From contig JAUYPV010000049.1 of NCBI GenBank assembly GCA_030697555.1, positions 1-64,000 of the forward strand: a stretch of DNA of 64,000 nucleotides, written 5' to 3'. Shown in pieces: positions 24,773 through 62,102 of the stretch; position 1 is the first letter of the stretch; each line of letters starts with the position of its first letter. Below the pieces are notes generated by a model. The model ran no database searches, was not told the origin of the DNA, and saw nothing but the letters and a program-made list of their open reading frames with translations. This DNA comes from Hyphomonadaceae bacterium (GTDB lineage: Bacteria > Pseudomonadota > Alphaproteobacteria > Caulobacterales > Hyphomonadaceae). The position numbers and the translations under genes were made by a program.

Positions 24773-24799
24773 GATGAGCTTCCTTGTGATCCCGCGGGA

Positions 24800-36722: not shown

Positions 36723-36759
36723 TGGATTCTCCTAGGGAATCCCGGCTGCAGAACGCGAA

Positions 36760-36890
36760 GCCGGGACCGCATGCGCGGCCCGACCGTTCAGCGCCTGCCG
36801 GATGAGCTCGCCGCTCAAGGGCAAAGAGCGCAGCGTCCCTTGAACGGCGGGCGCGGCAGGCGACGGGCGTTCGCGCGCATGCGGCCCGGC
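36760..36890 (-). promoter_or_regulatory. Extended imperfect hairpin upstream of parB-1
   Basis: GCCGGG/CCCGGC, CGCATGCGCG/CGCGCATGCG, CGCCTGCCG/CGGCAGGCG, CGCCGCTCAAGGG/CCCTTGAACGGCG nested. Confidence 0.7.
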
Positions 36891-37003
36891 GGCAGCTACA
36901 CGCCCCGGAGAACGCGAATGCTCAGAGCAGACGGGGCCAGACTCAGGCCACCCGAATCAGCCAGACTGCCCGCTCACCGCCGACTGCAAAGCTTCAAAAC
37001 GCC

Positions 37004-38719
37004 ATGACGGAAGTCCCGATCGCCCAGACAATCCTCGAGCAGGCGAAGGCCGGAACGCTCGCAAACCTCGTTGGTGAACGATTCGGGCGGTTGGATGGAG
37101 CAGAGTTCGACGCTGCGGTTGCGGCCTGCGTCGACCTGCACAATGCGGGGCAGATCGATTTCGTGGGTCTCGTCCATGAGCCCGCGTTCAAGGTGCTTCA
37201 TTCGAGCTACTTCTTCTTCGCGCAGCACGTCTTCGTCGCAGCCATCCCAGCCCTTTCCACTTCGCTTGACGCGATGCTGACCTGTGTCGACGCACTGGTA
37301 GCGCAGGCGGGACAGGATCAGATGGCGGGGCAGCCCCTGGGGCCGCTCGGCGCCTGGCTTCGGGCGGATCAAGCGCGCGCACTGGAGCTGGTAACCAAGG
37401 CAGAAGCTGGCGAGCAACCTGCCATGAACCACTATTTCCACGGTCTCGTGGCAGCCGCAGACATCGCGCGGGCGCGCCAGGCTGCGGAGACGTTTGATGA
37501 CCAGCGGCGTCTGGCGGCTGTCTCGGCCTTGGGCGAGATTGCGCATGATCCCGAAGGGACCGCCTTTTCCTTCGATCTTTTCTCCAGGCTTCACGAAGCG
37601 CATCGCAGCAACGATCACCTGCATGCGGCACTGGTGTCTGCCTGCGTCAGCCTTGTCGGCCACAACCCCTCGGCCGCGGAATCCGCGCGCGCCCTGTGCG
37701 CTGTTCTGGTTGAGGAGGCCGGCCCGCAGACGATCTATTGCTGCGCTCGTGTGATCTGGCGGCAGAAGCACGTACGAACGGATGCAGATCTCACAGAGAT
37801 CCTTCTCCCGCCGCTCCTGCGCGTCGCGCCGGAGCACAAGGGCACGATCAGAGAGATCGATGCCGCGCTGTCCACGCTGATGAGGGCCGGCAAACAGAAA
37901 CTCGTCATCGACTTCGTCACGAAGCTGCTGAGCGCACCGGATTGCGCACTCGCGCTCGAGGAGTTCCAGATGTTCTCCAACGCGCTTGAAAAGAGCGAGC
38001 ACTTACCTGCGACGTTGGTTGCGTGGCTCAGGAGCGCCGCCCCTGCTCTTTGCTCGGGCGCGGTGTCTCTGCATGGTGGGGACGATCTGGCGGGCCAGAT
38101 CGTCAGCCTTCCCAGCGAGGCGGTCGCGATGCCCGCCAACGAGCAGGCCTTCGTCTGTCGCAAGGCGGTGGCCTACTTCTTCTTCCAGCCGGTCACAGCC
38201 GCCTCGATCCTGGTGAGCTTCCTGCGAAGCTGTGACGCCGAAGCGCGGGAGGAGATCACCGGGCTGCTTTTCATGCCGCTTCTCCAGAACTATGGCGGCG
38301 GACCGCGCGACTACCTGGAAGGCCTCGATGACAAAGATCCGGCTCATGCCGCCGTCGTGGAGGCTCTCGCTGAGAACCGGCGATACATGGAAGGCCTGAC
38401 CAAGGGAGACGATATCAGGGAGCTTGCTCCATCAGAGCACCAGCGCCTAGTCGCGCATATGCGCCAGCGGGATGAAGCCACCCAGACGTTCAAGGCGGCG
38501 CGCGAGCAGTCGGTGCTGCGGCACTTCGTGAAGAACTCCACCATCCTCTACGGGCGCAGCTCACTCAACTATTTTGGCGGTGCAGGAGGCCGGCGCGCGG
38601 TGGAGACCGAACTGCAGCCGCATTCCGTCTCGATGGAGCTGCCCCGCATGCTCGTCGTCGACCCTCTTGGGCTCGAGTATCTGCTGTGGCGCTTCCGGAA
38701 CGAGGAGCTGGAGGCATGA
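37004..38719 (+). CDS. Large helical-repeat-like protein, candidate defence component A
   Basis: Long alpha-helical protein; translationally coupled to next gene; divergent from parB-1. Confidence 0.7.
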   Translation: MTEVPIAQTILEQAKAGTLANLVGERFGRLDGAEFDAAVAACVDLHNAGQIDFVGLVHEPAFKVLHSSYFFFAQHVFVAAIPALSTSLDAMLTCVDALVAQAGQDQMAGQPLGPLGAWLRADQARALELVTKAEAGEQPAMNHYFHGLVAAADIARARQAAETFDDQRRLAAVSALGEIAHDPEGTAFSFDLFSRLHEAHRSNDHLHAALVSACVSLVGHNPSAAESARALCAVLVEEAGPQTIYCCARVIWRQKHVRTDADLTEILLPPLLRVAPEHKGTIREIDAALSTLMRAGKQKLVIDFVTKLLSAPDCALALEEFQMFSNALEKSEHLPATLVAWLRSAAPALCSGAVSLHGGDDLAGQIVSLPSEAVAMPANEQAFVCRKAVAYFFFQPVTAASILVSFLRSCDAEAREEITGLLFMPLLQNYGGGPRDYLEGLDDKDPAHAAVVEALAENRRYMEGLTKGDDIRELAPSEHQRLVAHMRQRDEATQTFKAAREQSVLRHFVKNSTILYGRSSLNYFGGAGGRRAVETELQPHSVSMELPRMLVVDPLGLEYLLWRFRNEELEA

Positions 38720-40440
38720 AGCTCATCATCCGCGAATACCTCGCCTCGTTGCGCGAACGCGAGGAGCTCGATGCGATACTTCCCGTCCTGGTCAGCGAAC
38801 TGGGATACACGGTCTTCTCCAGCCCCCAGCGTGGCACACGACAACACGGCGTCGATGTTGCGGCTGTTGGCGACCACAATGGCGAGCGAAAGGTCTTCCT
38901 CTTCACCATCAAGAAGGGTGATCTCACGCGCCAGGACTGGAACGGCGATGTCCAGGCGGTCCGTCCTTCACTCGAGGAGATCGAGGACGTCTACATCCCC
39001 ACCAAGATCCCACCTGGCTACAAGGACCTGAAGGTCGTCATCGTCATCTGTTTCGGCGGTGAGGTTCGCGAGGCGGTCCGGGCGGAGCTGACCGGCTACA
39101 CGACCCGCAAGACGACCGACACGCTCTCCTTCGAGGAATGGAACGGCGATGTCCTCGCCAGTCACCTGCTTGCGGGCGTGCTGCGGGAGGAGGTGCTCCC
39201 CAAGGCGTGGCGATCGAGCTTCCAGAAGGCGGTCGCGCTTCTGGATGAACCCGACGCCTCGTACCGTCATTTCGCGACCCTGCTCCGGCAGATGGACATC
39301 TCGGCGTCCGCACCAGCCAAGGATCGCGTGCGAGCGGCCCGCCAAATCTATCTCTCCCTCTGGATCATGTACGTTTGGGCGCGCGATGTCGGGAACCTTG
39401 AAGCGCCCTATCGCGCAAGCGAGCTCGCGGTCCTCCACGCCTGGGAGCTGGTCAAGCCTGAGATCGGCGCATCGACCGAGGCTGGCGAGGCGTTGGCGAC
39501 CGTCCTCGTGCAGCTGATCAACGTCCACCAGTCGATTGCGTCCGGGCTCATCGACGAGAAGATTACACCCCTCGCCTCCTCACGGCATGCGTTGTCGGTC
39601 GCGGTCGGATCGCGCAACCCCGTCGACGTCAACCTCAAGCTCTTCGAGGCCCTGGGCCGGCTTGCGATGCTCGGGATGTGGCACGCCTGGAGCGCCGGCA
39701 TCGGCGACGAGGCGCACAAAGAGAAGAGCATGAAGGCGGCCCAGGAACGGTTCGACAAGGGCGTCGCGATGATCCGGTCGAACCCGCACCTGCTCCTGCC
39801 GGTATGTGACTCGCAGGCGACTGATGTCGCGCTTTTCCTTGTCCTCTGGCTCACGGCGGGAGGCGACCGCGCGGGCGTGGTGTACTGGCTCACGTCGATG
39901 GCGCAGCGCCTGAACTTCGGCGTCCGCACCCGCAGTGCTTATCCGATCACTTCGAACGACTACCGGGACCTGCTGCTGCACCCGAAGGACAAGTCGGACG
40001 AGTACTTCAAGCAGAACACTGCCGGAAGCACGCTGATCCCGCTCCTGACAGCTTGGCTTTCGGGCATGGCGGAAGCCGAGGCGTCGGACGCGCTCGGCAA
40101 GCTGGCGCGCGAGAAGCTTGAGCACTGCACCATGCAGCTGTGGCTGCCGGACGAAAGTTCCGACCAGCATCTCTATCTCAACACATCCACGCATGGGCGG
40201 GGTCTGACCGATCTCGACGTCGCTGATGGCTCGGGCCTGATTTCGACCATCGCGGCGGCGGTTGACGAGAAAAGAGACTGCACCGCCCTGAGCGCGTTCC
40301 AGACCGGGAACTGGCCGATCATCCTGCTGGCCTGTCGCCACTGGCGGCTGCCTGTGCCTCCAGACTTCTGGATCTCCGCCCTTTCACCTGACGCGGCGGA
40401 CAATCCTACCGACGGCGCTCCAGACGAGGATGCCTCCTAG
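38716..40440 (+). CDS. Protein with N-terminal PD-(D/E)xK-like nuclease signature, candidate defence component B
   Basis: ELGYTVFSSPQRGTRQHGVDVAAVGDHNGERKVFLFTIKKGDLTRQDWN; ATGA overlap with component A. Confidence 0.7.
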   Translation: MKLIIREYLASLREREELDAILPVLVSELGYTVFSSPQRGTRQHGVDVAAVGDHNGERKVFLFTIKKGDLTRQDWNGDVQAVRPSLEEIEDVYIPTKIPPGYKDLKVVIVICFGGEVREAVRAELTGYTTRKTTDTLSFEEWNGDVLASHLLAGVLREEVLPKAWRSSFQKAVALLDEPDASYRHFATLLRQMDISASAPAKDRVRAARQIYLSLWIMYVWARDVGNLEAPYRASELAVLHAWELVKPEIGASTEAGEALATVLVQLINVHQSIASGLIDEKITPLASSRHALSVAVGSRNPVDVNLKLFEALGRLAMLGMWHAWSAGIGDEAHKEKSMKAAQERFDKGVAMIRSNPHLLLPVCDSQATDVALFLVLWLTAGGDRAGVVYWLTSMAQRLNFGVRTRSAYPITSNDYRDLLLHPKDKSDEYFKQNTAGSTLIPLLTAWLSGMAEAEASDALGKLAREKLEHCTMQLWLPDESSDQHLYLNTSTHGRGLTDLDVADGSGLISTIAAAVDEKRDCTALSAFQTGNWPIILLACRHWRLPVPPDFWISALSPDAADNPTDGAPDEDAS

Positions 40441-40770
40441 ACGCGCCGATGGGGGCCGGTCAGTCCCCGAGACGATCGTCACCGATGGTCTGGCCTCGTA
40501 CGGCTCAGTGCCGAAAGCGCTCGGCCTGGAAGAGCGCCATCGACCAGGCCGGCTGCGCGAGAACAACCGCGCCGAGAATTCGCATCTCGCGATCCGGCGA
40601 TGCGAGCGCAATATGCTCGGGTTCAAGTCCCTGCCCTCGGCGCAGCCTTCCTCCCCACGGACGCCGCGATCTACAACGCATTCGATTTTCAGCGCCACAT
40701 GATCTGCCGGCCGACACTGAGGCGTTATCGGGCGCGCGCGGATTCCGTATGGGCTAAGGCGGCAGCTTAA
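40433..40770 (+). pseudogene. IS6-family transposase remnant (C-terminal part, frameshifted)
   Basis: PETIVTDGLASYGSVPKALGLEERHRPGRLRENNRAENSHLAIRRCERNMLGFKS, then in another frame AIYNAFDFQRHMICRPTLRRYRARADSVWAKAAA*. Confidence 0.85.
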
Positions 40771-40961
40771 GGGCAGAGGCGCACTTCGCGCCGAAGTCCA
40801 CGCCCGCAAGTTATCCTGACGCCCCCTTGAGCCGTCCAACCGCCAATCAATGTCGCGGCGGCATAGATGCGTCGTTTAATGAATTTTCCCGCCGACAGAT
40901 CATGTGGAAGGGTCGCCGTGCAGAAAACAATAAAAAGTGTACCTGCGGGAGGAGTTAAAGC

Positions 40962-43133
40962 ATGAAGAGGGCCTTACTATGTTCGGCGCAATTGTGTGCG
41001 ACCACTTTTTTGCTCGCGGCTGCTTCGCCCGCGGTCGCGCAAGTCACGGCTGAAGAACAAGCTTCAGATGTAATCGTTGTGACAGCGCGCAGACGAGAGG
41101 AGAGTCTGCAGGACGTTCCCTCCTCTGTTCAAGTCATTGGCCAAGAGCAGATCAACTCTATGAATGCGCGCTCGCTCGCCGAACTCAATGGAGCCACGCC
41201 CAACGTCAGCATGGATCCGCAAAATGGCACGATCACAATTCGGGGCATCAGTTCGAACGCGCGAAACGCGGGCTTCGAGGCGGGGGCCGCGGTATATATT
41301 GACGGCGTCTACCAGGGCCGGCCCGTCGGCAATAATCAGAACCTCGTCGACATCGCCCAAGTGGAGGTCCTGCGAGGACCGCAGGGCACGCTCTTTGGTA
41401 AGAACACGACCGCGGGAGCCTACAACATCACGACCGTTCGCCCGGGCGATGAGTTTCACGGTTCTGGCTATCTGCGTTTAGGTGAACAGGATCAGCGAGA
41501 ATTCGCAGGCTACGTGGCGGGACCGCTTGTCGAAGATGTGCTAGGCGGCAAGCTCGCGGTCTTTCGGCAAACACAAGATGGGTATCAACACGATTCTGGC
41601 ACCGGGCGTGACTACGGCAATGTTGACGCATATGGCGCCCGTGCGGAGCTGAACCTCACCGTCGGCGGGTGGGATCTCGCTCTGCGCGGAGACTACTCTT
41701 GGGACCTCGGCGAGGCGGCTAGACAAGAGCCAGTGCAAGGCCCACTCACGGGCAGGTCGCTGCAGGTGTCGCCAGGCATCGACACCATCCACTCCGACAT
41801 ACAGCAGGAGTCCGAAGTTCACGGTGGCGGCCTTTCCTTCACAGCGGAACGCGACCTGGGCTTCGCCACGCTGACGTCCATTACCGCTTGGCGGGAATTG
41901 GCCTCGGAAATCGTCGTCGATGATGATTATGGAACGGCCGGGACAACGACATTTCCAGCCTACGTGTTCGTGCCTGCCCTAGCGAACATCTATCACCATT
42001 ACGACGACGAGGGACGCCATTTCAGCCAAGAGATTCGGCTAGCTTCGCCGTCCGACAGCTTTGTCACCTATGTGGCGGGCCTCTACTATTTCAGTCAGGA
42101 GCTCGACAGTCGTCGGGACTACGTGGCTGGTTACGCGCCAAACTTCTTCATCAACAACTCCAACGTCGAGACGACCGCCTATGCCGCGTTCGCGAACGTT
42201 GATTTGAACGCCACCGATCGGCTGACCTTCACCGCGGGCCTTCGTTACACCCACGAAGAAAAAGATCTTGCCTATTTTCAACAAGGAAACATCGGGTATC
42301 CGACCATTCCTCAAACTACGGACAGCGTCTCCGATAACGACCTGTCCCCCGCGTTGAGTGTGAGCTACCACTTCACGTCAGACGTCATGGGGTATGCGAC
42401 GGCAAGCAGAGGATACAAGTCTGGCGGATGGAATCCGGAGTTGACGCTACAGACCACAGTCCAAGGTATTCGCTTCGAGTCCGAGCAAAACACCAATTAC
42501 GAACTTGGACTGCGAACGCAATTCTTCGACCGGCAATTGACGGTAAACGCGACCCTCTATCACATGGACTACACTGATCTGCAGGTGTCGCGCTTCCTCG
42601 GCGCCGGCGGCCTCGTCATCAGCAACGCTGGTGAGGCCGCTATCGAAGGCCTCGAGCTCGAGGCGATTGCCCGGCCAACCACTTGGTTGCGTCTTTCCGC
42701 TGGCGCCGCGCTTAATGAAGCGAAGTATGGCGACTTCAACCTGGAAGGCGGCGCGCCATTCCCCTACAGCGGCCAAGATTTGACGAACTCGCCGCGGCGG
42801 ACCGGCTTTGTGGCGGCCGATATTGATCTGCCGATCGCGTCGTCATGGTCGTTCCTCGCTCATGGAGACTATCGATACATCGGCGAGCGCTACTTCAATG
42901 ATGGACGCACGCACCCCAGCGGCAACGGCGCGGTAGCGGAAAGCTACGCTATAGCAAACGTGAATTTTGGCATTCGATCCGATAACGGTTTGGAAATCAT
43001 CGCGTACGCCAACAACATTGGTGACGAGCGCGGCGTCATCTCCCGTTCGACCGACTTTCTAGGTTATAACTACCTCCTCGAACGCTATACCTCGCCACGC
43101 CAAGTCGGCGTCAGGATTGGATATTCGTTCTAA
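40962..43133 (+). CDS. TonB-dependent outer-membrane receptor
   Basis: Signal peptide, DVIVVTARRREESLQDVPSSVQVI plug, VEVLRGPQGTLFGKNTTAGAYNITT, terminal RIGYSF. Confidence 0.95.
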   Translation: MKRALLCSAQLCATTFLLAAASPAVAQVTAEEQASDVIVVTARRREESLQDVPSSVQVIGQEQINSMNARSLAELNGATPNVSMDPQNGTITIRGISSNARNAGFEAGAAVYIDGVYQGRPVGNNQNLVDIAQVEVLRGPQGTLFGKNTTAGAYNITTVRPGDEFHGSGYLRLGEQDQREFAGYVAGPLVEDVLGGKLAVFRQTQDGYQHDSGTGRDYGNVDAYGARAELNLTVGGWDLALRGDYSWDLGEAARQEPVQGPLTGRSLQVSPGIDTIHSDIQQESEVHGGGLSFTAERDLGFATLTSITAWRELASEIVVDDDYGTAGTTTFPAYVFVPALANIYHHYDDEGRHFSQEIRLASPSDSFVTYVAGLYYFSQELDSRRDYVAGYAPNFFINNSNVETTAYAAFANVDLNATDRLTFTAGLRYTHEEKDLAYFQQGNIGYPTIPQTTDSVSDNDLSPALSVSYHFTSDVMGYATASRGYKSGGWNPELTLQTTVQGIRFESEQNTNYELGLRTQFFDRQLTVNATLYHMDYTDLQVSRFLGAGGLVISNAGEAAIEGLELEAIARPTTWLRLSAGAALNEAKYGDFNLEGGAPFPYSGQDLTNSPRRTGFVAADIDLPIASSWSFLAHGDYRYIGERYFNDGRTHPSGNGAVAESYAIANVNFGIRSDNGLEIIAYANNIGDERGVISRSTDFLGYNYLLERYTSPRQVGVRIGYSF

Positions 43134-43151
43134 CCCGCGAAAAACCGTGAC

Positions 43152-43180
43152 AGCCGGATGGCGCAAGTCATCCGGCTTTT
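43152..43180 (+). terminator. Terminator after TonB receptor
   Basis: AGCCGGATG-gcgcaagt-CATCCGGCT-TTTT. Confidence 0.75.
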
Positions 43181-43235
43181 GCGTTTCACTACTTCGCCCG
43201 ACCACGCACTCGCCAGAAGGCAGTCGATTTCACGC

Positions 43236-44762
43236 ATGCAACTGACGCAAGGCCTTCACCGCTGCCGCGACCTCTTCCCGAACCGGGCAGCCACGATATG
43301 TGCGGGCAGGACCAAGACTTGGGCTACTCTGGTCGATCGAATTGCTCGCCTTGCGGGGGGCTTTCAAAAGATTGGCGTCATGCCGGGAGACCGGGTGGTC
43401 ATTCTCTCACTTAACAGCGATTACTTTGTCGAGGCGCTTTACGCCGCCGCTTGGGTTGGCGCCGTTTTCGTCCCGTTCAACACACGATGGGCGAAAGCCG
43501 AGATCGAGCACGCCGTCAATGATTGCGAGCCGAGGATCGCTCTATTGGACGATACTTTCGCTTCGCACACCGAGGCGTTCTCCGCTCGTGGCGTCAAGGT
43601 GCTGCATATGGAACAAACCCATGGCGCGGATTCGCTTGAATGTCTGATCCAAAGCTCTCCTCCCGCCGACGACAGACGCAAGAAGGGCGAGACACTCGCT
43701 GGCATATTCTACACGGGTGGAACGACAGGCCGCTCCAAGGGCGTGAAGCTCAGCCACAGAAACATCCTAAGTAGCTTCTTCTCCCTTCACGCGATCGCGC
43801 TGTACCCCTCGGAGACAATCTTCCTGCATACGCCGCCAATGTTTCACCTGGCGGACGCGGGGCTGCTTTTTGGACTAACGCAGCTTGGCGCGACGCACGT
43901 GATCTTGCCCGGCTTTGAGCCGGGCTCGACATTGCGCGCCATCGAGCAGCACCGCGTCTCGGCGTTGGTTCTCGTGCCGACCATGATCGGCATGCTCTGC
44001 GAAGCACTACGCGACGCCGCGGTCGATCTCTCAAGCGTCGGCATGCTGTCCTACGGCGCCTCGCCGATTTCGAGCGCGGTTCTTGAGCGCGCCATGGCGG
44101 CCTTTCCCAACGCGCGCTTCGTGCAGGGCTATGGTCAAACCGAATTATCTCCCGCCGCCACCGTGTTGGATCACGCGGACCATTTGGCCGGACGCCTGCA
44201 ATCGGCCGGACGCGCGATCCCTGGCGTCGACGTTCGCATCGTGAACGAATCCATGGCGGAGCTAGAGCGAGGCGCCATTGGGGAAATCGTCGTGCGCGGC
44301 GCCAATGTGATGCTCGGCTATTGGCGCCAACCCGAGCTTACCGCCAAGACGATCGTGAACGACTGGCTTCGCACTGGCGATGCGGGCTATCTGGATGTAG
44401 ATGGCTATCTCTACCTCGTCGACCGCGTGAAAGACATGATCGTGAGTGGCGGGGAGAATGTGTACTCGGCCGAAGTCGAGGACGCGCTCATGCGCCATCC
44501 CAGTATCATGCAGTGCGCGGTCATTGGCGTGCCCGACGACCGATGGGGCGAGCGTGTGCACGCGGTGCTGTATTTGCGCCCTGGCGCGAAACTCGACGAA
44601 GCCGATCTCATCGCCCATTGCGAGCCCTTGATCGCGAACTACAAGCGTCCCCGCTCGTTCGAGCTGCGCGACAGTCCGCTTCCGTTATCCGGCGTCGGCA
44701 AGATATTGAAGACCGAGCTTCGCAAACCATACTGGCAAGATCGATCACGCAATGTCGGCTGA
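43236..44762 (+). CDS. AMP-dependent acyl-CoA synthetase/ligase
   Basis: IFYTGGTTGRSKGVKLSHRN, FVQGYGQTELSP, DWLRTGDAGYLDVDGYLYLVDRVKDMIVSGGENVY; the ORF's GTG/ATG at 43158 lies inside the terminator so 43236 is preferred. Confidence 0.92.
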   Translation: MQLTQGLHRCRDLFPNRAATICAGRTKTWATLVDRIARLAGGFQKIGVMPGDRVVILSLNSDYFVEALYAAAWVGAVFVPFNTRWAKAEIEHAVNDCEPRIALLDDTFASHTEAFSARGVKVLHMEQTHGADSLECLIQSSPPADDRRKKGETLAGIFYTGGTTGRSKGVKLSHRNILSSFFSLHAIALYPSETIFLHTPPMFHLADAGLLFGLTQLGATHVILPGFEPGSTLRAIEQHRVSALVLVPTMIGMLCEALRDAAVDLSSVGMLSYGASPISSAVLERAMAAFPNARFVQGYGQTELSPAATVLDHADHLAGRLQSAGRAIPGVDVRIVNESMAELERGAIGEIVVRGANVMLGYWRQPELTAKTIVNDWLRTGDAGYLDVDGYLYLVDRVKDMIVSGGENVYSAEVEDALMRHPSIMQCAVIGVPDDRWGERVHAVLYLRPGAKLDEADLIAHCEPLIANYKRPRSFELRDSPLPLSGVGKILKTELRKPYWQDRSRNVG

Positions 44763-44773
44763 GCGCCCGTCAC

Positions 44774-45373
44774 TCACGGCGACGCGCGCAGAAACCTCCC
44801 GATCAGGGTCTCCAATGCTTCGCCGAACTTCGCGGCGTTGAGTTTGGGGTCACGGACGGCGAGCGTCTTACACCCGTCGAGAATGCTGATGAGAATAATC
44901 GCGGCCATGTCCGGATCGAGACTGGTATCGATCTTTCCGCGTTTTTGGCCGTCGCGCAGGAACTCGGCCAAGAGCTTGCGCATGCCCGCCGTGTGCTCTC
45001 GTAGCGCCTTGGCGATCGCTGGATTTCGGCCGGCTTCCGACAGGATTTCCAACAGCACGCCGCCGCCGCCACTTAGTTTCTTGTACGATCGGAATCTCTC
45101 GACCTCCGCCAACACGGCGTCGACCGGGTCGGGTTGGTCAACGAGACGCGCAAGGCCCGTCTCCACATACTCAAGGCCCCTGGCCGAAATGGCGTTCATG
45201 ATCGCCACCTTGCTCTCGAAATAATGATAAAGGTGGCCAGGGCTGATGCCCGCCTCATCGCAGATCTGGGCGATCGTCGTCGCGTGAAAGCCCCGCCGCG
45301 CGATGCACCGCTCGGCGGCGTCGAGAATTTCCGCGCTCTTGGCGTCGTGTTTCGCTGTGTCGACCGTCCGCAT
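44774..45373 (-). CDS. TetR-family regulator
   Basis: ILDAAERCIARRGFHATTIAQICDEAGISPGHLYHYFESKVAI. Confidence 0.92.
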   Translation of the reverse strand: MRTVDTAKHDAKSAEILDAAERCIARRGFHATTIAQICDEAGISPGHLYHYFESKVAIMNAISARGLEYVETGLARLVDQPDPVDAVLAEVERFRSYKKLSGGGGVLLEILSEAGRNPAIAKALREHTAGMRKLLAEFLRDGQKRGKIDTSLDPDMAAIILISILDGCKTLAVRDPKLNAAKFGEALETLIGRFLRASP

Positions 45374-45482
45374 CTCGCATCCATTGTTCGAGCAAATGCT
45401 CTATTATTCGTTGACACCGAATTACGCATCAAGATAGTTAGTGCGTCCACTCTATTTTAGAAGCTTGAGCGAGATAAAGCGC

Positions 45483-46373
45483 ATGAGATTGGTCGTAATG
45501 ACCGGGGGCACCGCTGGGATCGGGCTCGCGGCGGTCAAGGAGATGCGGCGCGACCGCGACGTCCGGGTGCTGGTCGGCGCTCGTGGCGCCGATCCGTCCG
45601 ACGGCGATCGTTTCCCACTCGATCTTGGCCGGCTCGAAAACGTCCGAAGCTTCGCGTCGATCATTGAGCGGGCGCGGGGCGAGACGGCCATCGACGCCCT
45701 CGTGCTCAACGCCGGCTTGCAGTTCAGCGATGTCGCGCACCGGACCGAGGACGGGTACGAGACGACGTTCGCCGTGAACCATCTCGCGCATTTCTTATTG
45801 CTGCGCCTGCTCATGCCCGCCCTTGCGCGGAACGCCATCGTGGTCATCACATCAAGCAATTTGCATGACCCGCGTCTGAACAAGGTCGCTCCCCCACAAC
45901 ATGCCGACATCGCGAAACTGGCGCGCGGCGAGGGCGAACTCGATGGGCCAAGGGGCGCGATGGCGGGCTTGCGGCTCTATGCGGCATCCAAGCTCTTGAA
46001 CATCATGACCGCCAGGGCGCTCGCGACGTCGCCTTTCGCACGCGAGCGTGGACTGCGCGTGATCGCCTACAACCCCGGCCTCACGCCAGGCACGAAGCTC
46101 ACGCGCAGCCACCCTACCGCGTTTCGAATTCCACATGGCTTCATTCTATCCATTCTGGCGCCCATCCAGCGCATGAACACCGTCGCGGGCGGCGGCAAGA
46201 TCCTCGCAGATCTTGCTCTGGGCGCGGCCACGCCACCGGTGGGAGAGTTCTACGCATCCCACGTAAAGCGCCGCTTGGAATGGACGACCCCTTCCGAAGC
46301 CGTCATGGACGAGAGCCAAACGGCGAAAGTCTGGCGCGATAGCGCGATCATGCTCAACCTGCCGCAAACCTGA
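45483..46373 (+). CDS. Short-chain dehydrogenase/reductase
   Basis: VVMTGGTAGIGLAAVKEM, LVLNAGLQ, YAASKLLNI. Confidence 0.88.
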   Translation: MRLVVMTGGTAGIGLAAVKEMRRDRDVRVLVGARGADPSDGDRFPLDLGRLENVRSFASIIERARGETAIDALVLNAGLQFSDVAHRTEDGYETTFAVNHLAHFLLLRLLMPALARNAIVVITSSNLHDPRLNKVAPPQHADIAKLARGEGELDGPRGAMAGLRLYAASKLLNIMTARALATSPFARERGLRVIAYNPGLTPGTKLTRSHPTAFRIPHGFILSILAPIQRMNTVAGGGKILADLALGAATPPVGEFYASHVKRRLEWTTPSEAVMDESQTAKVWRDSAIMLNLPQT

Positions 46374-46383
46374 GATTTGACCG

Positions 46384-47613: not shown

Positions 47614-47699
47614 AGGCTTCCACCGATTGGTGCGATCTATTGCCTCTCGCCGCGACGTTTACGAACTGACCGCGCAGTAGGAAGGAATTGGCTGCGATC

Positions 47700-50671: not shown

Positions 50672-50751
50672 GTCGAACTTCGGATGAACGCGCTCGCCAG
50701 GGACAATCGCGTCCTGCTTTTTCGACCTGGCGACTTGTGAGCGAGATCAAC

Positions 50752-51582: not shown

Positions 51583-51615
51583 CAGCAAACGCCGCTGCGG
51601 CGCCGGCTTCTCGAT

Positions 51616-52407: not shown

Positions 52408-52453
52408 TTCATTGCCTTGCCTGGATCGAAGAACGATGCGACGCGCGCGACGC

Positions 52454-53371: not shown

Positions 53372-53409
53372 ATCTCGAACTCCCATTTCTCATTCTATCT
53401 TCGCGGATC

Positions 53410-53829
53410 TCAGCTGACGGCCACCACCGCGTGTCCATTCAGGGTCTCGCGCCCATCCTGGGCGGTCGCAATCAGGTTCAAGCGCAGGCGCTGTTCACCC
53501 TCGGCCTCGAACTTCTCGATGATAGTCGCCTTGCAAGTGATGCGGTCATGCACTTGCGTGATCGACACGAAGCGCGCGGCGAACTCTCTCAGCCGGCCGA
53601 TCCCCGCCCAACTCGTCACCACCCGCGTCAACACGCCAAAGGACAACATCCCGTGCGCGAACACATCCGGCAAGCCGGCAGCCTTCGCGAAATCCAAATC
53701 GATATGCACCGGATTGTGGTCGCCAGACGCCCCCGCATATAGCGCGAGCGTCGCGCGCGAGATCGGTCCAAACTCGACGTCCGGTAAGGTCGCGCCGACT
53801 TCCGCCGCGCTAAGATCGAGCTCACTCAT
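53410..53829 (-). CDS. MaoC-like hydratase
   Basis: YAGASGDHNPVHIDLDFAKAAGLPDVFAHGMLSFG hot-dog hydratase motif. Confidence 0.9.
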   Translation of the reverse strand: MSELDLSAAEVGATLPDVEFGPISRATLALYAGASGDHNPVHIDLDFAKAAGLPDVFAHGMLSFGVLTRVVTSWAGIGRLREFAARFVSITQVHDRITCKATIIEKFEAEGEQRLRLNLIATAQDGRETLNGHAVVAVS

Positions 53830-54341
53830 CGCGATCCATCCTTCGCATCCGGGAGGCGGTGCAGCAGTGTCCGTCGCGATCGCATCAACACGCCGCGCTT
53901 GGGATGCGTGATGGTCGACTCGGTGACGACAAACTCCATCGCCCCGCCCTTCTTGTCGTAGAAGTCGACGACCTTCGAGGCGAACAGAACCTCCTCGCCT
54001 GCATAGATCGGGGCGTCGTAGAAATAGCGCTCGTCTCCGTGGAGCAGATACCGAAAGTCACAAACCACAACGTCCAAGAGCGACGGCAACGCGCGTCGTC
54101 CGCGCTCCTCGTTGGCGGCGGCTTCCACGACCATGAAGAAAGACGCAGGCGCCACGAGATCGTGGTGGCCCGCGGCGTGGGCGACGTCGGCGTCGAAATG
54201 GATGAGATTGGTTTCGCCGAGCACCTGCGCGAAGAAACGAACGCGCTGGCGCTCGATCAGCACCGGCACCGCCTCGAGCGTCACACCCAAGGCGCCCCGA
54301 TCGAAGATGCCTCTGGGATTGACCAGGACTTCAGAACTCAC
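53826..54341 (-). CDS. MaoC N-terminal-domain-like dehydratase subunit
   Basis: VRFFAQVLGETNLIHFDADVAHAAGHHDLVAPASFF; overlaps partner MaoC gene by 4 nt. Confidence 0.82.
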   Translation of the reverse strand: MSSEVLVNPRGIFDRGALGVTLEAVPVLIERQRVRFFAQVLGETNLIHFDADVAHAAGHHDLVAPASFFMVVEAAANEERGRRALPSLLDVVVCDFRYLLHGDERYFYDAPIYAGEEVLFASKVVDFYDKKGGAMEFVVTESTITHPKRGVLMRSRRTLLHRLPDAKDGSR

Positions 54342-54405
54342 GGCGACGCCACCTTCTCGTTTTCACAAACGTTTCTTCGTCCCCGCACGAAGCGGGGTCG
54401 CTCTC

Positions 54406-55599
54406 TCACGATGTCTTTTCATAGAGCGTGACGACACAGGCGCCGCCGAGCCCCAGATTGTGCTGCAGCGCGTGACGAACGCCATCGACCTGTCGGGCGC
54501 CCGCAGTCCCGCGCAATTGATGCGTGAGCTCGTAACATTGCGCGAGACCGGTGGCGCCTAGCGGATGGCCTTTCGACAAAAGGCCGCCTGACGGATTGGT
54601 CACGACCTTGCCGCCATAAGTGTTGTCGCCATCGGCGATGAATTTCTGCGCGCCACCTTCTGGACAGAGACCTAGGCTTTCGTAAGTGATGACCTCATTG
54701 TGCGCGAAGCAATCGTGCAGCTCCACGACGCGGATATCATCCGGGCCGACGCCGGCGCGTTCGTAGACGCTCTTGGAAGCACGCTCCGCCATGTCGCGAC
54801 CGACCAAGTCGATCATGCTGCCGGAAGCGAGCGACACTGGCCGATCCGTCGTCATCGCTTGCGCGGCGATCTTCACCTGCGACGCGATGGCGTGCTTCTT
54901 GGCGAAGGCGGCGGAAACGAGGATCGCCGCCGCCGCGCCGCATGTTGGCGGGCAAGCCATCGGCCGGGTCATCACACCGGGCCAAACCACGGGCGAGTTT
55001 AGCACTTCCTCTTCGGTCATCACGTTCTTGAACAACGATAGAGGATTGTGCGAGGCGTGGCGGCTGGCCTTCGCTCGCACGCGCGCGAAATCGTCCAGCG
55101 TCGTGCCATATTTCCGCATGTGCTCGCGGCCCGCGCCGCCGAAGTATCTGAGCGCTAGCGGCAGCTCGACATCGACAAGTTCGTCGCATGTGCGATCGAA
55201 GTCCGCGAATGGGCTTACACGATCGGCGAAGATCGCGGCGATGGCGCCCGGGCTCATTTGTTCGAAACCAACCGCCAGCACGCACTCGGCCGCCCCGCTC
55301 TCCACCGCCTGGCGCGCCAGGAAGAGCGCTGTCGAGCCGGTGGAGCAATTGTTGTTGAGATTGACGATCGGGATCCCGCTCATCCCAGCTTGGTAGATGG
55401 TGCGTTGCCCCGCGCAGCTGTCGCCATAGACGTAGCCAGCATAGGCCTGCTCAACGAGCCCGTAGTCGATCCCCGCATCGCGCAGAGCGAGCCCGATGGC
55501 TTCTGCGCCCATCTGGTCATAAGCCGCGTTCTGGCCAGGCTTGGTGAACTGAATCATCCCGACACCCGCCACAAGCACCGCGCGTTCCGCCGAAACCAT
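54406..55599 (-). CDS. Thiolase / SCP-x-like acyl-CoA thiolase
   Basis: NLNNNCSTGSTALFLARQAVESG, NPSGGLLSKGHPLGATGLAQCYELTHQLRG. Confidence 0.9.
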   Translation of the reverse strand: MVSAERAVLVAGVGMIQFTKPGQNAAYDQMGAEAIGLALRDAGIDYGLVEQAYAGYVYGDSCAGQRTIYQAGMSGIPIVNLNNNCSTGSTALFLARQAVESGAAECVLAVGFEQMSPGAIAAIFADRVSPFADFDRTCDELVDVELPLALRYFGGAGREHMRKYGTTLDDFARVRAKASRHASHNPLSLFKNVMTEEEVLNSPVVWPGVMTRPMACPPTCGAAAAILVSAAFAKKHAIASQVKIAAQAMTTDRPVSLASGSMIDLVGRDMAERASKSVYERAGVGPDDIRVVELHDCFAHNEVITYESLGLCPEGGAQKFIADGDNTYGGKVVTNPSGGLLSKGHPLGATGLAQCYELTHQLRGTAGARQVDGVRHALQHNLGLGGACVVTLYEKTS

Positions 55600-55664
55600 C
55601 TTCTTCTCCTCGAACTTGCCTATTCTATCGCGGACACCGCGAGATCGCGACGCTCCAAACTGTT

Positions 55665-56807
55665 TCAAATGGATCGCGACACGACTTCGCGCATGATCTC
55701 GGAAGTGCCGCCATAAATGCGTTGCACACGCGCGTCGCGCCACATGCGGGCGATCAGGACCTCGTTCATGTAGCCGGCGCCGCCATGCAATTGCAGCGCG
55801 GCGTCAGTGATCTCCCACTGCGTTTCCGTATGCCAATACTTCGCCGCCGAGGCCTCGGCCGCGGTGAGTTTACCCTTGATGTGACGATCGAGGGCCCAGT
55901 CAGCGTGCGCCCAGCCGACTTGCAGCTTCGCTTTCATGTCCGCGAGGGAGAATCGCGGATGCTGAAACTCGAAGATGGCCTTGCCGAACGCACGCCGATC
56001 CTTGGTGTAGTTGACGGCTTCGTCGAAGGCGCGCTGCGCGGCGCCTTGGGCGAAAATCGCAATGGACAATCGTTCCTGCGCAAGTTGGTTCATCAAACAG
56101 GAAAAGCCCGCACCCTCAGCGCCCAGGAGATTGCTTGCGGGGACACGCACGTCCTCAAAAAAGAGCTCGGACGTGTCGGCGGAATGCAGGCCGATTTTGT
56201 CGAGATTTCTTCCGCGCTTGAACCCGGCTCGATCGGCCTCGACAAGCACGAGCGATATTCCCTTGGCCCCCGCGTCCGGATTGGTCTTGGCGACAACAAT
56301 CACCAAGTCAGCCGTCTGGCCATTCGAAATGAAAGTCTTTGAGCCGTTGACGATGAAATCACCGCCGTCACGCCGCGCCGAGGTTCGAATGCCCTGAAGA
56401 TCAGAACCTGCCCCAGGTTCTGTCATGGCAATGGCGACAACCACGTCGCCAGAAACCATCTTCGGCAGATAATGTTGTTTTTGCTCTTCAGAAGCGTAGC
56501 GCTCCAGATAGCTGACCGAGATGTCCGACTGGATCATCGACGGCAACATCACGCCCGCGTAGCCCGACTCCTCGTTGAGGACAGCATTGCAGCGAAAGTC
56601 CAGCCCGAGCCCTCCATACGCCTCCGGCACAGTGGGACATAGAAGGCCCGCCGCGCCGCTTGCCTTCCAATACGACCGATCAACGACGCCTTGCCGCTCC
56701 CAGCGATCGTAATTCGGCGCAATCTCGCGCTCGAGAAAGCGACGGGCGGTGTCGCGAAGCTGATCGTGCTCGGCGGCATAAACAAAGCGCCCCTCCACAT
56801 TCAGCAT
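55665..56807 (-). CDS. Acyl-CoA dehydrogenase
   Basis: VVAIAMTEPGAGSDLQGIRTSARRDGGDFIVNGSKTFISNG...QLHGGAGYMNEVLIARMWRDARVQRIYGGTSEIMREVVSR. Confidence 0.95.
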   Translation of the reverse strand: MLNVEGRFVYAAEHDQLRDTARRFLEREIAPNYDRWERQGVVDRSYWKASGAAGLLCPTVPEAYGGLGLDFRCNAVLNEESGYAGVMLPSMIQSDISVSYLERYASEEQKQHYLPKMVSGDVVVAIAMTEPGAGSDLQGIRTSARRDGGDFIVNGSKTFISNGQTADLVIVVAKTNPDAGAKGISLVLVEADRAGFKRGRNLDKIGLHSADTSELFFEDVRVPASNLLGAEGAGFSCLMNQLAQERLSIAIFAQGAAQRAFDEAVNYTKDRRAFGKAIFEFQHPRFSLADMKAKLQVGWAHADWALDRHIKGKLTAAEASAAKYWHTETQWEITDAALQLHGGAGYMNEVLIARMWRDARVQRIYGGTSEIMREVVSRSI

Positions 56808-57707
56808 TTTCGCTCCCGCCGACACGCCCCAGACGCCCCAGTGTTCGTGGAAGCAAACACCGCACATGCTGGTGCGTCCAATTCATTGCTCTGCCGTTTT
56901 ATGTTTTCAGCGAATGGATCGAAGTCGGCTGGTTTCATCCAAGTCGTTCGATATCGGAGCTTCGATTGCGTCGCGGGCGCGCGGGTTCACAAAACCAGCT
57001 CGCGCTATTGACGACACCCGACTTTCACTGGAATTGCAAAACGTACACAAGGCACGATCCGCTCTACGGCTGCAGCGTCATGCTGGCGCCGACGGCTCAC
57101 CAATTCGCACAGACAAGACAGACGAGTTTGAAGCAGGTTTCTGCCAAGTCTCTGCCCTTGATGTGTTTGATTGGGTGTCGCGGTCGCGGTGGCGTCACTC
57201 TGCCTAGGCGCGCAGCTGCGCAGATCCTCGCGGCGGGCGATGCCAGCATCACGGAGAACCTTCGTCAGTTTCCACCAAGCTACGTTCTGGACATGCTGGA
57301 GCGGACCGCGGGAGCCGACATACTCGAGGGCGGGCCTACGGAGCCAGCCAAGCATGCGCTCGAAGAGCTTCGATTGGGCGGCGTACTTGTTCTCAAAAGC
57401 CCTGCCGACGAATCAATTGTCGAGACATGATCTTCCGCGACAGGGATTGTCACCCGGAGGGCCGAGACCCCTTGGCTCGGGGCGCAGCCTAAAGCCCGGC
57501 GCGCGGAGCGCGGTCGCCAGGCAACTTCATTTCCAGGTCCCCCTTGTCTGCTCCGGCGAAATTTGAGAGCCTTCCTGCAAGCGTACCCACGCTTCCCCCC
57601 TCCAATGGGAAAGCACTTAACGTGCAGGGCTGAACGACAGCGAACTCGCCATCCGAACATTCGCAAAAGGAGGGATTGTGAAATCATGCTCGAATGGAAA
57701 GTTCACA

Positions 57708-58154
57708 ATGAAACTGTCAGCATCGATCCCGAACCTGAAATCTCAAGCCAAGCGTAAGGCCAAAGAGGAAGGCATTCCTCTTGCCGAAGCTTTGAATCAC
57801 ATCGCCAAGCGCGAGGGGTTCAACAGCTGGAGCCTCCTGGCGAGGAAGGTCGAAGAGCACGAGGAAGCTCAGCGCCAGGAGCTTCCCAAGACTATCACCG
57901 AGCTGCCGCTCACCGGTTTCCTCAGAAAGGAAGCGGTGTCGACCGCCGAAGAGGCCTTCGCAAGGGCGCTGGGCAGAATGGAAGCCCGAAACCCGCGGGA
58001 CGCCAGACGGACCTGGGACGCGGACGCCTATGTCGACAGAGTCCTTACGCCAGACATGCTGCCGATCGACACCGATCATGCGTTGTCCCTGTTCGAGGCC
58101 TTCATCGTCATGGACGCTGTCGAAGCAGCGGCCGATGCCGATGCCGAAGACTAG
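57708..58154 (+). CDS. Small helical protein (DNA/partner-binding-like N-terminus)
   Basis: LKSQAKRKAKEEGIPLAEALNHIAKREGFNSWSLLARK; start chosen at second Met. Confidence 0.6.
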   Translation: MKLSASIPNLKSQAKRKAKEEGIPLAEALNHIAKREGFNSWSLLARKVEEHEEAQRQELPKTITELPLTGFLRKEAVSTAEEAFARALGRMEARNPRDARRTWDADAYVDRVLTPDMLPIDTDHALSLFEAFIVMDAVEAAADADAED

Positions 58155-58164
58155 CCACTGACCT

Positions 58165-58194
58165 GGTCGCCTCCGGAGCGATCCGGGGGCGACC
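58165..58194. terminator. Hairpin between convergent genes
   Basis: GGTCGCCTCCGGA-GCGA-TCCGGGGGCGACC (one mismatch). Confidence 0.6.
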
Positions 58195-58305
58195 GACGTG
58201 GCGGTCTCGTGGTCCGACGGAAGTGAGGTTGAAAGGGCTCGCAGCGGGCAACCCAATGTGCGGACGTTTGCGGCGCCCTGAATGCCGCATGCGATGCGGC
58301 GGCAG

Positions 58306-59847
58306 CTATCGCGATGCGCCTTTCTTGTCACGCACAGCAGCCAGAAGCTTTTCCAGATTGCGCAACTGATCGAACGCATGGTTGGCCTCAGCGAGCGATG
58401 CCGCCCGCGTAAGGACGTCCTCTGCGCGGTCGAGGTCGCCTGCGGCCGTCAGCATCTGTCCGTGCTTGCCGGCGGCCCTGAAATAGAAATCGTTCGTCAC
58501 ATGGCGCGGGTCGCTCTCGAAGAGAGCCAGGCCCTCCTCCATCAGCCTCAGCGCCTCGTTCCGGCGGAAGGATAGAAAGGAAAGCGCATGGGCGTATTCC
58601 GTCTGCGATTCCGCGATTTTCGCGGTCGCAGCTGCCGCGCGTACACGACCATCGAAGGCAAAGCGGAAGTCCCGCAACGCAAGCGCGTACCGCCATTTCT
58701 CTCCGAGCAGCGCCAGGCGCGCGTGCGCGCTGGCACGCTGCTGGCGTAGGGTAATCCGATCCGCACCAGGTCGAGCAAGCCCCGCCTGGCACAAGCTGAT
58801 TGCCTGATGATAGAAACGGCGAGCGGTGACCGGGAGCCGTATCTTGTTGCCGATGGAATGATAGGCGCTCGCCCGCGGATGATGGGGCGGATTGCTTTCG
58901 CCGCCGACATCCCTTGCGTGCGCCAGCTCGTTGAGCGTTGCGAGGCAACCCATCGGGTGTGAACCATGAAGCCCGTGCCACGCCGCGGACTCGTTCCACA
59001 GCCCCAGGACGGTCTGGAGTTCGGGGTTGAGGTCGGCCGCACGCCGTGCGCTGTCCGTGTTGGCGAGTTCTCGGATCGCGATCCACAAATGGGTCAAGCG
59101 GGTGATGTGGCCCATAGGTCTACCCTGACGCTTGGCGTCGGTGACCTGTCCGATGCTCTTTCTGATCAGGTCCGCGTCGCCTCCAAGCCCGTTGTCACGC
59201 CTCAGCCCGCCACTCAGAAATGACAGATGCGGCGCCAGTCTCTCCTGCCGTAGTTTCTCTTTGACGCGACCGATGCTGACAGGGTCGAAGAGCCAGGGAG
59301 AGATCCCGGCCTCACCACGCGCGGCGGCTTTGGCGAAGCGGTGGAATTCCTCTGGCACATCGCCACGATCGGCTGTGAGAAGAAGAGACCCCAGCGTATT
59401 GCTCACGAGCGCCAGGAAGGCCTGCATGCTGGCCGACGGTTGCATGTCGCGAACCTGCACGACGCAGCACGGCATGCTCTGGAAGCATGCTTCGAGAAGT
59501 TCGGCTTCGAAGAACGAAACCTGCGCCTGCTGGAGGAACGGGTCACGGCTCACCACAACCTTGCTACCGTGCCGTTCGAAAACCATTCCGAAGAATGCCT
59601 GGCAGGTTCCGATCAGACGGGCGCACCCCTCGAGAATTGCGATGTGATCGCCGGCCTGCGCCGCTTCATCGATAAGCGGATCGTCCTCGCCAAGGACCAC
59701 CTCGACGCCGTAAGCTGCAGCGTCCCTCTGAAGGTCGCGGCGCAGCGGCATCAGGTCGTCTGCGCCGCTCTCACGGGCGCTGAACGAGGAGGACAGATAG
59801 ATCCTCACGACCGAAACTCCATGCACCGCGTCAACATGATCGCACAC
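58306..59847 (-). CDS. DUF4062-like N-terminal domain fused to TPR-like helical region
   Basis: VRIYLSSSFSARESGADDLMPLRRDLQRDAAAYGVEVVLGEDDPL...GTCQAFFGMVFERHGS...VSFFEAELLEACFQSMPCCVVQV; C-terminal helical repeats. Confidence 0.55.
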   Translation of the reverse strand: MCDHVDAVHGVSVVRIYLSSSFSARESGADDLMPLRRDLQRDAAAYGVEVVLGEDDPLIDEAAQAGDHIAILEGCARLIGTCQAFFGMVFERHGSKVVVSRDPFLQQAQVSFFEAELLEACFQSMPCCVVQVRDMQPSASMQAFLALVSNTLGSLLLTADRGDVPEEFHRFAKAAARGEAGISPWLFDPVSIGRVKEKLRQERLAPHLSFLSGGLRRDNGLGGDADLIRKSIGQVTDAKRQGRPMGHITRLTHLWIAIRELANTDSARRAADLNPELQTVLGLWNESAAWHGLHGSHPMGCLATLNELAHARDVGGESNPPHHPRASAYHSIGNKIRLPVTARRFYHQAISLCQAGLARPGADRITLRQQRASAHARLALLGEKWRYALALRDFRFAFDGRVRAAAATAKIAESQTEYAHALSFLSFRRNEALRLMEEGLALFESDPRHVTNDFYFRAAGKHGQMLTAAGDLDRAEDVLTRAASLAEANHAFDQLRNLEKLLAAVRDKKGASR

Positions 59848-59956
59848 TTCGTCGCTTGGTTCACGAGGGGCGCCAGCCTGCTACGAAAAGCAAAGCCGCC
59901 GATACGACAAAATCCGGGCTCCCGGCGGCGCTGGCGTCTTCATTGGCCAAGGACGA

Positions 59957-59991
59957 AAAGCCTCACGCAGATTTCCTCCGCGTGAGGCTTT
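59957..59991. terminator. Bidirectional terminator after parB-2
   Basis: AAAAGCCTCACGC-agatttcctc-CGCGTGAGGCTTT; same stem core as the parB-1 terminator. Confidence 0.75.
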
Positions 59992-59999
59992 CGGCTGCC

Positions 60000-61946
60000 T
60001 TACTCGGCGGCCACCGCCGGAAGCGCAATTGCTGCAGCGCCCTGCGGCGGAACCGCGAGACCGCCAATGGCGACGGGCGTCACGAGGATGTCGGGCAGAT
60101 AATGCGAGCCCTCTAACAAGGCCGAGACTTTGGCGGCGAGCTCGTCCTTGCGCAGCTTGGCGTGCGCCTTGATGGCGTCCTCGCGCGCCCGTGCGCTCCG
60201 TTCAGGCATGCTGGGCGCGTCCGATAGCGCCGACATGAGCGCGGACTTCGGCAGGCGGGTCCAGAAGTCGGGGCCGGCGGTCCAGTACCGCGTCATGTCG
60301 ATATCAAGATGACGCGCCAGACTGTCGGCAATCGCTTGCTTGCGGAGGTCCACAGGCGATGTGTCTTCATGCGAAAGGTCGACTGAGCCCGCGACCAACA
60401 CGGCCAGCACGGCAAGAAGCCTCTCGCGCGAAAGATCCAGCGCCCAACCGAGGAGTGCATCGTCCTCGGACGGAATCTGTCCCTCCATCAGGGCTCTCGC
60501 GTCTTCAAGATCGGGCAAATCATCCACCGTGCGGGCCTGAGCCGAAATTGCTACGCCCGTGAACTCGGCCCTGTGCACGCTCCTCGCGGCCAGCGCCGCG
60601 ACGCACAGCGCCAGGGCGACATCCAGCTCACCCAGAAGCCCAACGCGGATTGCGCGCGTGCGCGCAAGTGTCAGGTCGCGATTGACCGCCTTGGGGAGCG
60701 CGCTCACATGCCCGGCCGGCCCATCCTCGATACCGTCGTCCTCGCTCTCGGCGCCGTTCCCTGCGCGGCGTTGCTTGAAATACGCATCGACGCGTTTCTG
60801 ATCGTCGGTGCGAACAAGGCCCTCTGAGACGCTGACCTCGCCGTCATGATCGATGGACAGCATCACACCGGAGAGCGCCATCACATCGCCTGTCCAGCAA
60901 CGGCCGGCCTGGCGGATCGTTTCAAACGCTGCTTCGAGATCGTCGCGTTCTGTCCAGCGCGGGTCGTCCTCCACACCGTTTGCGTCCAGTTCCGCGTCCA
61001 GCGCCTCGATCTCGCCCGAGATACGATCAAGCTCGGCCTGCTCTTCGGCCGTCGGATCCCGCCATTCCGGATGCAGGCGCGTCGATGACAGGCCGTCGCC
61101 TCTGCCGGCGCCGAGATTGAGATCGACCCAGCTCCAGCCTTGCGCAAGCCATGTGTCGCGGGACGCGGCAAGTTTATCCTCCGCCAGCTTTGTCAGCAGC
61201 GCAGGCGCTTCAATGAAGACGGCCTCCGGATCGAAGAGGTCCCGGAGCACCTTTCCGCCAGCGGCCTCATACGTCTCCAGCCCAACGAAGACGGCGAGCC
61301 GATCAGTCGTCCGCATGCGACCGTCCATGAGCCGTGCACGAACAGAAGGCCCATGCGTTACCGGCTTGCCAAGGCTGCGAAAGACCGCGTCCTGCTGCGC
61401 GTGGTCATCCACGAGGCAGAAGGCCCGGGCTGCGTCGAGTGACACGTCACCGCGTTTCCAGGCCGCCTTGATCCGGGGCGAAAGCCCCGCAAGCGCCAGC
61501 CGTTGATCGACGTGCCGGCGTTCTACGCCGAAACGGCGCCCGACTTCATCGGGCGTCTTGCCCTCCGCAACCAGCGCGGCATAGGCGTCGACTTCGTCCA
61601 TTGCGTCCATCGCGACGCGATGCACATTCTCCGTCAGCGATACCTCGATCCCGTCCTCGCGAGCGACGACTTGGCACGGGACCGGCCAATCCTTGGCGAT
61701 CTTGCCCTGTTTGGCGAGCAGCTTGAGGGCGAGCCGACGGCGACCGCCGGCTTCGACTTCGAAGCAATCCTTCTCGCCTGGCACGACGCACAGGTTCTGA
61801 AGAAGTCCGCGCGAATGAATCGAAGCAGCCAACGATTCGATATCGGCTTTCGGATGCCTACGCCGCACGTTGCGTGGCGATGCGACGAGCTTGTTCAACG
61901 GGATGTATTGAATGACTTGAGGCAGATCAGACATGGGATGCTCCAA
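60000..61946 (-). CDS. ParB-like protein, paralog 2
   Basis: Full-length homolog of 34788-36722: IPLNKLVASPRNVRRRHPKADIESLAASIHSRGLLQNLCVVPGEKDCFEVEAGGRRRLALKLLAKQGKIAKDWPVPCQVV. Confidence 0.93.
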   Translation of the reverse strand: MEHPMSDLPQVIQYIPLNKLVASPRNVRRRHPKADIESLAASIHSRGLLQNLCVVPGEKDCFEVEAGGRRRLALKLLAKQGKIAKDWPVPCQVVAREDGIEVSLTENVHRVAMDAMDEVDAYAALVAEGKTPDEVGRRFGVERRHVDQRLALAGLSPRIKAAWKRGDVSLDAARAFCLVDDHAQQDAVFRSLGKPVTHGPSVRARLMDGRMRTTDRLAVFVGLETYEAAGGKVLRDLFDPEAVFIEAPALLTKLAEDKLAASRDTWLAQGWSWVDLNLGAGRGDGLSSTRLHPEWRDPTAEEQAELDRISGEIEALDAELDANGVEDDPRWTERDDLEAAFETIRQAGRCWTGDVMALSGVMLSIDHDGEVSVSEGLVRTDDQKRVDAYFKQRRAGNGAESEDDGIEDGPAGHVSALPKAVNRDLTLARTRAIRVGLLGELDVALALCVAALAARSVHRAEFTGVAISAQARTVDDLPDLEDARALMEGQIPSEDDALLGWALDLSRERLLAVLAVLVAGSVDLSHEDTSPVDLRKQAIADSLARHLDIDMTRYWTAGPDFWTRLPKSALMSALSDAPSMPERSARAREDAIKAHAKLRKDELAAKVSALLEGSHYLPDILVTPVAIGGLAVPPQGAAAIALPAVAAE

Positions 61947-61972
61947 TGAGCTTCCCGGCGGCAGAATGCGAA

Positions 61973-62102
61973 GCCGGGGCCGCTTGCGCGACCCCGATTC
62001 ACAACGCCTGTCGGATGAGCCCGCCGCTCAAGGGCAAAAGCGCAGCGTCCCTTGAACGGCGGGTGCGACAGGCGATGTCCCAGAGCGCGCAAGAGACCCG
62101 GC
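61973..62102 (-). promoter_or_regulatory. Extended imperfect hairpin upstream of parB-2
   Basis: GCCGGG/CCCGGC, CTTGCGCG/CGCGCAAG, CGCCTGTCG/CGACAGGCG, CCGCCGCTCAAGGG/CCCTTGAACGGCGG nested; compensatory changes relative to 36760-36890. Confidence 0.7.

Follow-up and report, generated by a model that had tools for sequence, protein, structure and literature searches.

The 64,000-nucleotide (nt) window analysed here, a stretch of contig JAUYPV010000049.1 from a Hyphomonadaceae bacterium, contains two parB-like genes, each preceded by a long imperfect palindrome. It also encodes a single-stranded DNA-binding protein (SSB), an anti-restriction protein (ArdC) and a relaxase. A third, longer hairpin, overlooked in the preliminary description of this DNA, lies directly upstream of ssb. 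The features concerned are:

34788-36722, minus strand: parB1, encoding a ParB-like protein of 644 amino acids with ParB_N and HTH_ParB domains, a homologue of the ParB of the F plasmid leading region
36760-36890, minus strand (that of the downstream gene parB1; putative folding strand plus, the template): hairpin 1; covariance-model match 36720-36887, 176 bits
36816-36842, minus strand: conserved tip of hairpin 1, CAAGGGACGCTGCGCTCTTTGCCCTTG; GCGCAGC on the plus strand, a GC-GCA-GC mini-hairpin
60000-61934, minus strand: parB2, encoding a ParB-like protein; 70% identity to parB1
61973-62102, minus strand (that of the downstream gene parB2; putative folding strand plus): hairpin 2; covariance-model match 61932-62099, 161 bits
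62029-62054, minus strand: conserved tip of hairpin 2, CAAGGGACGCTGCGCTTTTGCCCTTG; GCGCAGC on the plus strand
24350-24772, minus strand: ssb, encoding SSB
about 24788-24975, minus strand: the third hairpin, z -7.5
23383-24279, minus strand: ardC, downstream of ssb, encoding the anti-restriction protein
20051-22048, minus strand: DUF3363-type relaxase gene, with ssb, ardC and the two parB genes to its right

As the preliminary description had stated, both parB genes share the minus strand with ssb and ardC; transcription of all four runs toward the relaxase gene. The ParB of the F leading region is homologous to the window ParB (30% identity over 647 positions, E 4e-48), and the F genes are oriented alike, with ssb, ParB and PsiB pointing toward traM and the origin of transfer (oriT). 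In the window oriT is probably close to where the relaxase gene starts, which would make the plus strand both the entering strand in conjugation and the template of parB, ardC and ssb. Two further elements that were mapped show the order trb-type secretion genes (divergent), hairpin, parB, ardC, traF and relaxase, with parB and ardC oriented toward the relaxase. Position and orientation thus support the link of the hairpins to leading-region genes that had been proposed.

Hairpins 1 and 2 are real and carry compensatory changes. Both fold over the claimed intervals: they are more stable than dinucleotide shuffles under RNA parameters on the minus strand (z -4.2 and -6.5) and under DNA parameters on the plus strand (z about -4.7 each), and no shuffle was equally stable. 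They end 37-38 nt from the parB ATGs (36722 and 61934), or about 27 nt in the second case if TTG 61946 is the start, matching the spacing of 27-38 nt given earlier. The paired co-changes already quoted are present in both hairpins, and selection on structure is supported across five homologous leaders, in which both partners have changed in 9 of 52 pairs (mean of shuffles 4.2). Palindromes can self-correct by template switching, which could mimic covariation though not a strand bias. The base of the parB leader also carries a conserved inverted repeat, for example GGTCGCGCACGCGACC. Divergent from parB1, at 37004-40440 of the window, are two genes matching OloA and OloB of an Olokun-type anti-phage system (PADLOC).

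The hairpins belong to a large family in the order to which the window belongs. Among genomes of that order, a first covariance model built from the five leaders matched in 13 of 150, and a second, built from 21 members, matched 91 times, in 43 of 398 genomes and up to six times per genome; because family members share descent, these counts overstate their independence. The window's own genome has a further full copy before another ParB-like gene on a different contig, plus a weak fourth copy. Among 83 loci examined, 67 lie before ParB-like genes and three before ArdC-like genes, the remaining 13 being mostly partial or weak matches. The tip stands 56 to 140 nt from the start codon. Named homologues that have the complete leader come from two Hyphomonadaceae metagenome-assembled genomes (MAGs; L041 and L116) and one contig labelled Kiritimatiellae, which is probably misbinned. 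A class-wide search with the five-sequence model had found almost only the window's own genome; it was the wider search within the order that recovered the family. At the gathering score, Rfam gave no match in the window or in nine loci that contain members of the family (a match to MIR918, far below that score, was dismissed as chance). A plasmid search with the whole hairpin, F included, returned only four rhizobial tip matches and none to F; a plasmid search with the centre of one family member returned nothing, and the family was not found in viral_contigs.

Which strand folds can be read from the mismatches that a stem tolerates. A hairpin kept for one strand tolerates G.T there, so that A.C is seen on the other strand. 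Single in-stem mismatches were counted under Watson-Crick-only folding in 28 representatives less than 80% alike. On the coding strand A.C outnumbered G.T by 26 to 12, C.C outnumbered G.G by 24 to 5 and C.T outnumbered G.A by 16 to 2, each ratio placing the better-tolerated mismatches on the template strand. Under DNA parameters the template strand was the more stable in 25 of the 28 (mean -5.8 kcal/mol; two-sided sign test, about 3e-5). The controls were flat, both in coding-sequence windows (46 of 84, mean -0.36) and in the upstream flank (12 of 28, mean -0.08). An mRNA leader of a divergent neighbour was ruled out as the source of this bias: in 23 of 50 cases the gene upstream points the same way as the one downstream, the upstream genes fall into more than 30 unrelated kinds, and the bias is equally strong in the co-directional set, where the template strand was favoured in 11 of 11. 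In the F plasmid itself, taken as a positive control, the 150-nt windows that fold best ahead of ssb and ygeA, possibly the published Frpo sites, are more stable on the template strand by 4.4 and 3.2 kcal/mol, which lends weak support.

The tip of the hairpin gives a second signal. On the template strand it reads GC-GNA-GC or GC-GNNA-GC in 26 of the 28 representatives, whereas the coding strand has it in 13 and shuffles in about 5. The loop length and middle letters vary freely. The loops GCCA, GTCA, GTTA and GATA fit the GN(N)A rule for DNA and not the GNRA rule for RNA. GNA and GNNA loops closed by G-C pairs form ultrastable, nuclease-resistant DNA mini-hairpins (PMC4686876). Nakano et al. 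in 2002 (listed among the references of PMC2984261) are likewise said to have described these ultrastable mini-hairpins. Together, the strand bias and the tip loop indicate that it is the template DNA strand that folds, and not the mRNA. The tip pattern was also tried as a family marker across all genomes and abandoned, the matches being dominated by terminator-like Treponema repeats at gene ends. Such palindromic repeats with a similar tip (GTCAAGGCACGCTTCGCTTAAAGCCTTGAC) occur in many copies per genome in Treponema and in the Rhodospirillales MAG CAMFLK (L018-L135); those of Treponema carry a T-run as in a terminator, and their resemblance to the parB element may be chance. The reversed control pattern matched once in 385 genomes, so tip-only matches outside the alphaproteobacteria were not counted as relatives.

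Diverged alphaproteobacterial ParB genes (about 35% identity) provide an internal comparison. At the same place they carry a hairpin, about 50 nt long and unrelated to the present family, that has a GAGAGAGAGGC loop (the GA-loop hairpin) and adjoins the ribosome-binding site. Among 47 sequences, 12 of its 20 pairs have changed on both sides (0 of 500 shuffles). Its bias is reversed, with G.T to A.C at 174:17 on model pairs and 48:9 when counted alignment-free, and in 24 of 26 it is the coding strand that folds more stably. The reversal identifies the GA-loop hairpin as an mRNA leader and indicates that the strand test tells the two kinds apart. It resembles the present family in lying before homologous genes in several copies per element, and differs in being on the coding strand, shorter, next to the ribosome-binding site and unrelated in sequence. 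The preliminary description had held that its proposal would fail if homologous parB loci lacked the hairpin: relatives from the same order have it, whereas diverged ParB loci mostly carry this other, mRNA-type hairpin in its place. The GA-loop leader ends about 10 nt before the starts of ParB, ArdC, DUF932 and other leading-region genes (for example L156:1398-1475, L166:2102-2179, L178:19998-20075 and L180:18731-18806; alignment A5). It was found at 168 places in 117 plasmid records and in 25 of 289 genomes, and has no Rfam family.

The hairpin before ssb differs in sequence from the parB/ardC element and has both GCGCAGC and GCGAAGC on the plus strand, whereas the coding strand lacks both. 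The apical portion of this hairpin (CCGNGTCCTCGC...GCGGGCCGCACCAACCCCTTG in relatives) recurs intergenically near rep genes of small plasmids of Klebsiella, Morganella, Aeromonas, Xanthomonas and Agrobacterium, one of them only 3 kb. Other hairpins share the tip. In rhizobial plasmids (L006, L007, L015, L016, L048, L073, L083, L091 and L110) the interval between mobC and parA contains one such hairpin (tip CAAGGGACGCTNCGCTCTTCGCCCTTG), bordered by conserved GGTTCACC repeats; it is possibly part of oriT. Caulobacter and Phenylobacterium elements (L014, L034, L036, L038, L131 and L135) have a long same-tip hairpin before a DUF2493 gene, near ssb and radC in L014, with the template strand the more stable (-71.2 versus -65.6). 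The mapped elements (L335 and L338; G507:C3:218282 and G467:C8:285998) have a second tip-like palindrome (GGCGTCAAGGCACGCTTCGCT...), situated close to the relaxase gene or past it.

Single-stranded promoters of the Frpo/ssi kind were reportedly described by Masai and Arai in 1997. Frpo hairpins drive leading-region genes of F and may also prime synthesis of the complementary strand (PMC9849209). Like the Frpo/ssi sites of F and ColIb-P9, the elements described here are predicted to form a long stem-loop on the template strand, ahead of leading-region genes among which are ssb and a ParB homologue; both kinds occur in several copies per element, with the genes facing oriT or the relaxase gene. 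In single-stranded form the window hairpins are predicted to be long, stable stem-loops, as Frpo requires, with the template strand favoured. Template-strand DNA folding is something that a Frpo-type element requires and an mRNA attenuator does not. The present family differs in lacking -35/-10 boxes, in being G+C-rich and unrelated in sequence, and in having its own GN(N)A-capped tip; it occurs in alphaproteobacterial elements with a DUF3363-type relaxase and is known from sequence alone. With the defining boxes absent and no sequence similarity found, it is not a member of the Frpo family. The earlier proposal of Frpo-type single-stranded promoters is thus supported as regards template-strand folding, the leading-region genes and orientation, but not as regards family membership.

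A parallel for the tip comes from the early promoters of phage N4, which are read by the virion RNA polymerase and have a template-strand hairpin with a G..A loop and a C-G closing pair; SSB melts the hairpin of the other strand and spares this one (PMC4496689). The template loops here likewise have a 5' G, a 3' A and a C-G closing pair in 26 of the 28 representatives. N4 stems are 5-7 bp and are used by a phage polymerase, whereas those of the present family have tens of pairs, and no search for such a polymerase was made.

The proposal that the hairpins are single-strand leading-region elements working like Frpo is well supported. More specifically, we propose, with slightly better than even confidence, that they fold on the entering strand and promote early expression of ParB, ArdC and SSB. 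As the entering strand, which would serve as template for parB, ardC and ssb, reaches the recipient, each palindrome would fold on it, aided by the GC-GN(N)A-GC tip mini-hairpin, a type known to be resistant to heat and nucleases. The folded arm would imitate double-stranded DNA beside the gene start. RNA polymerase would then read the entering strand toward its 5' end, so that ParB, ArdC and SSB are made early, before the second strand is synthesised. Like Frpo, the hairpin may also provide a primer for the complementary strand. The promoter role, that is, reading by RNA polymerase and early expression, is the step that we infer. We further suggest, more tentatively and as a possibility that we hold below even likelihood, that the family is its own class of single-stranded promoters, recognised through the GN(N)A-capped template hairpin instead of sigma-70 boxes, and that it arose outside the Frpo lineage.

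Several observations weigh against a promoter on the entering strand. A search of all three window hairpins for -35/-10 (sigma-70) boxes found none, and the distance from tip to start codon varies, as given above. Both oriT and the transferred strand are deduced from the position of the relaxase gene. A coding-strand skew of C over G in the downstream genes may inflate part of the mismatch bias, although the coding-sequence control, which has the skew without the folding bias, makes it unlikely that the skew is the only cause. Finally, the relatives of the ssb hairpin apex near plasmid replication genes would fit a priming site equally well. This last point leads to the main rival, an ssi site that has no promoter role, at which a primase or primosome would be loaded onto the folded entering strand and prime synthesis of the complementary strand. 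Such a site should give the same strand signal, and the related tip between mobC and parA in rhizobial plasmids is in keeping with it, but it leaves unaccounted for the tie of the element to parB/ardC starts in 70 of 83 loci, and priming alone hardly explains several copies per genome. We regard it as unlikely, if a serious contender.

The other explanations have to contend with the strand signal. That the hairpin is a structured 5' leader of parB mRNA (an attenuator, a control of the ribosome-binding site or a protein-binding RNA) is suggested by its place just before the start codon, where diverged parB genes do have an mRNA hairpin. However, its bias is the reverse of the one seen in the mRNA family (A.C in excess of G.T, against the alignment-free 48:9 in favour of G.T there), its loops obey the DNA rule on the template strand, and neither a T-run nor a terminator was found in the window leaders, making this quite improbable. 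A binding site in duplex DNA or a cruciform, such as an operator or a centromere-like site to which the ParB-like protein itself would bind, would suit palindromes that adjoin genes of DNA-binding proteins and the inverted repeat GGTCGCGCACGCGACC at the leader base. It is nevertheless very unlikely: it calls for conserved sequence, yet the outer arms change while pairing is kept; it predicts no strand bias; and the element also stands before ardC and, with another sequence, before ssb. Least credible, and in our estimate extremely unlikely, is a mobile palindromic (REP-like) repeat with no role at these genes; several copies per genome and the tip-like motif in the terminator-like repeats of Treponema and one Rhodospirillales MAG would be expected of it, but not the strong tie to parB/ardC starts, the loop rule or the strand bias.

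Single-stranded promoters have been demonstrated for a few enterobacterial plasmids, and a 2024 survey of leading regions sought relatives of five known Frpo/ssi sequences together with sigma-70 boxes (PMC11541004). Having looked only for these, the survey would have missed the family described here. The strand-asymmetry test (A.C versus G.T mismatches, DNA folds of both strands and loop type) is a cheap way of finding elements that act as single-stranded DNA, and it separates them from mRNA leaders. If our proposal for the hairpins of parB, ardC and ssb is correct, different sequences would have arrived at one general strategy, the early expression of genes from the entering strand.

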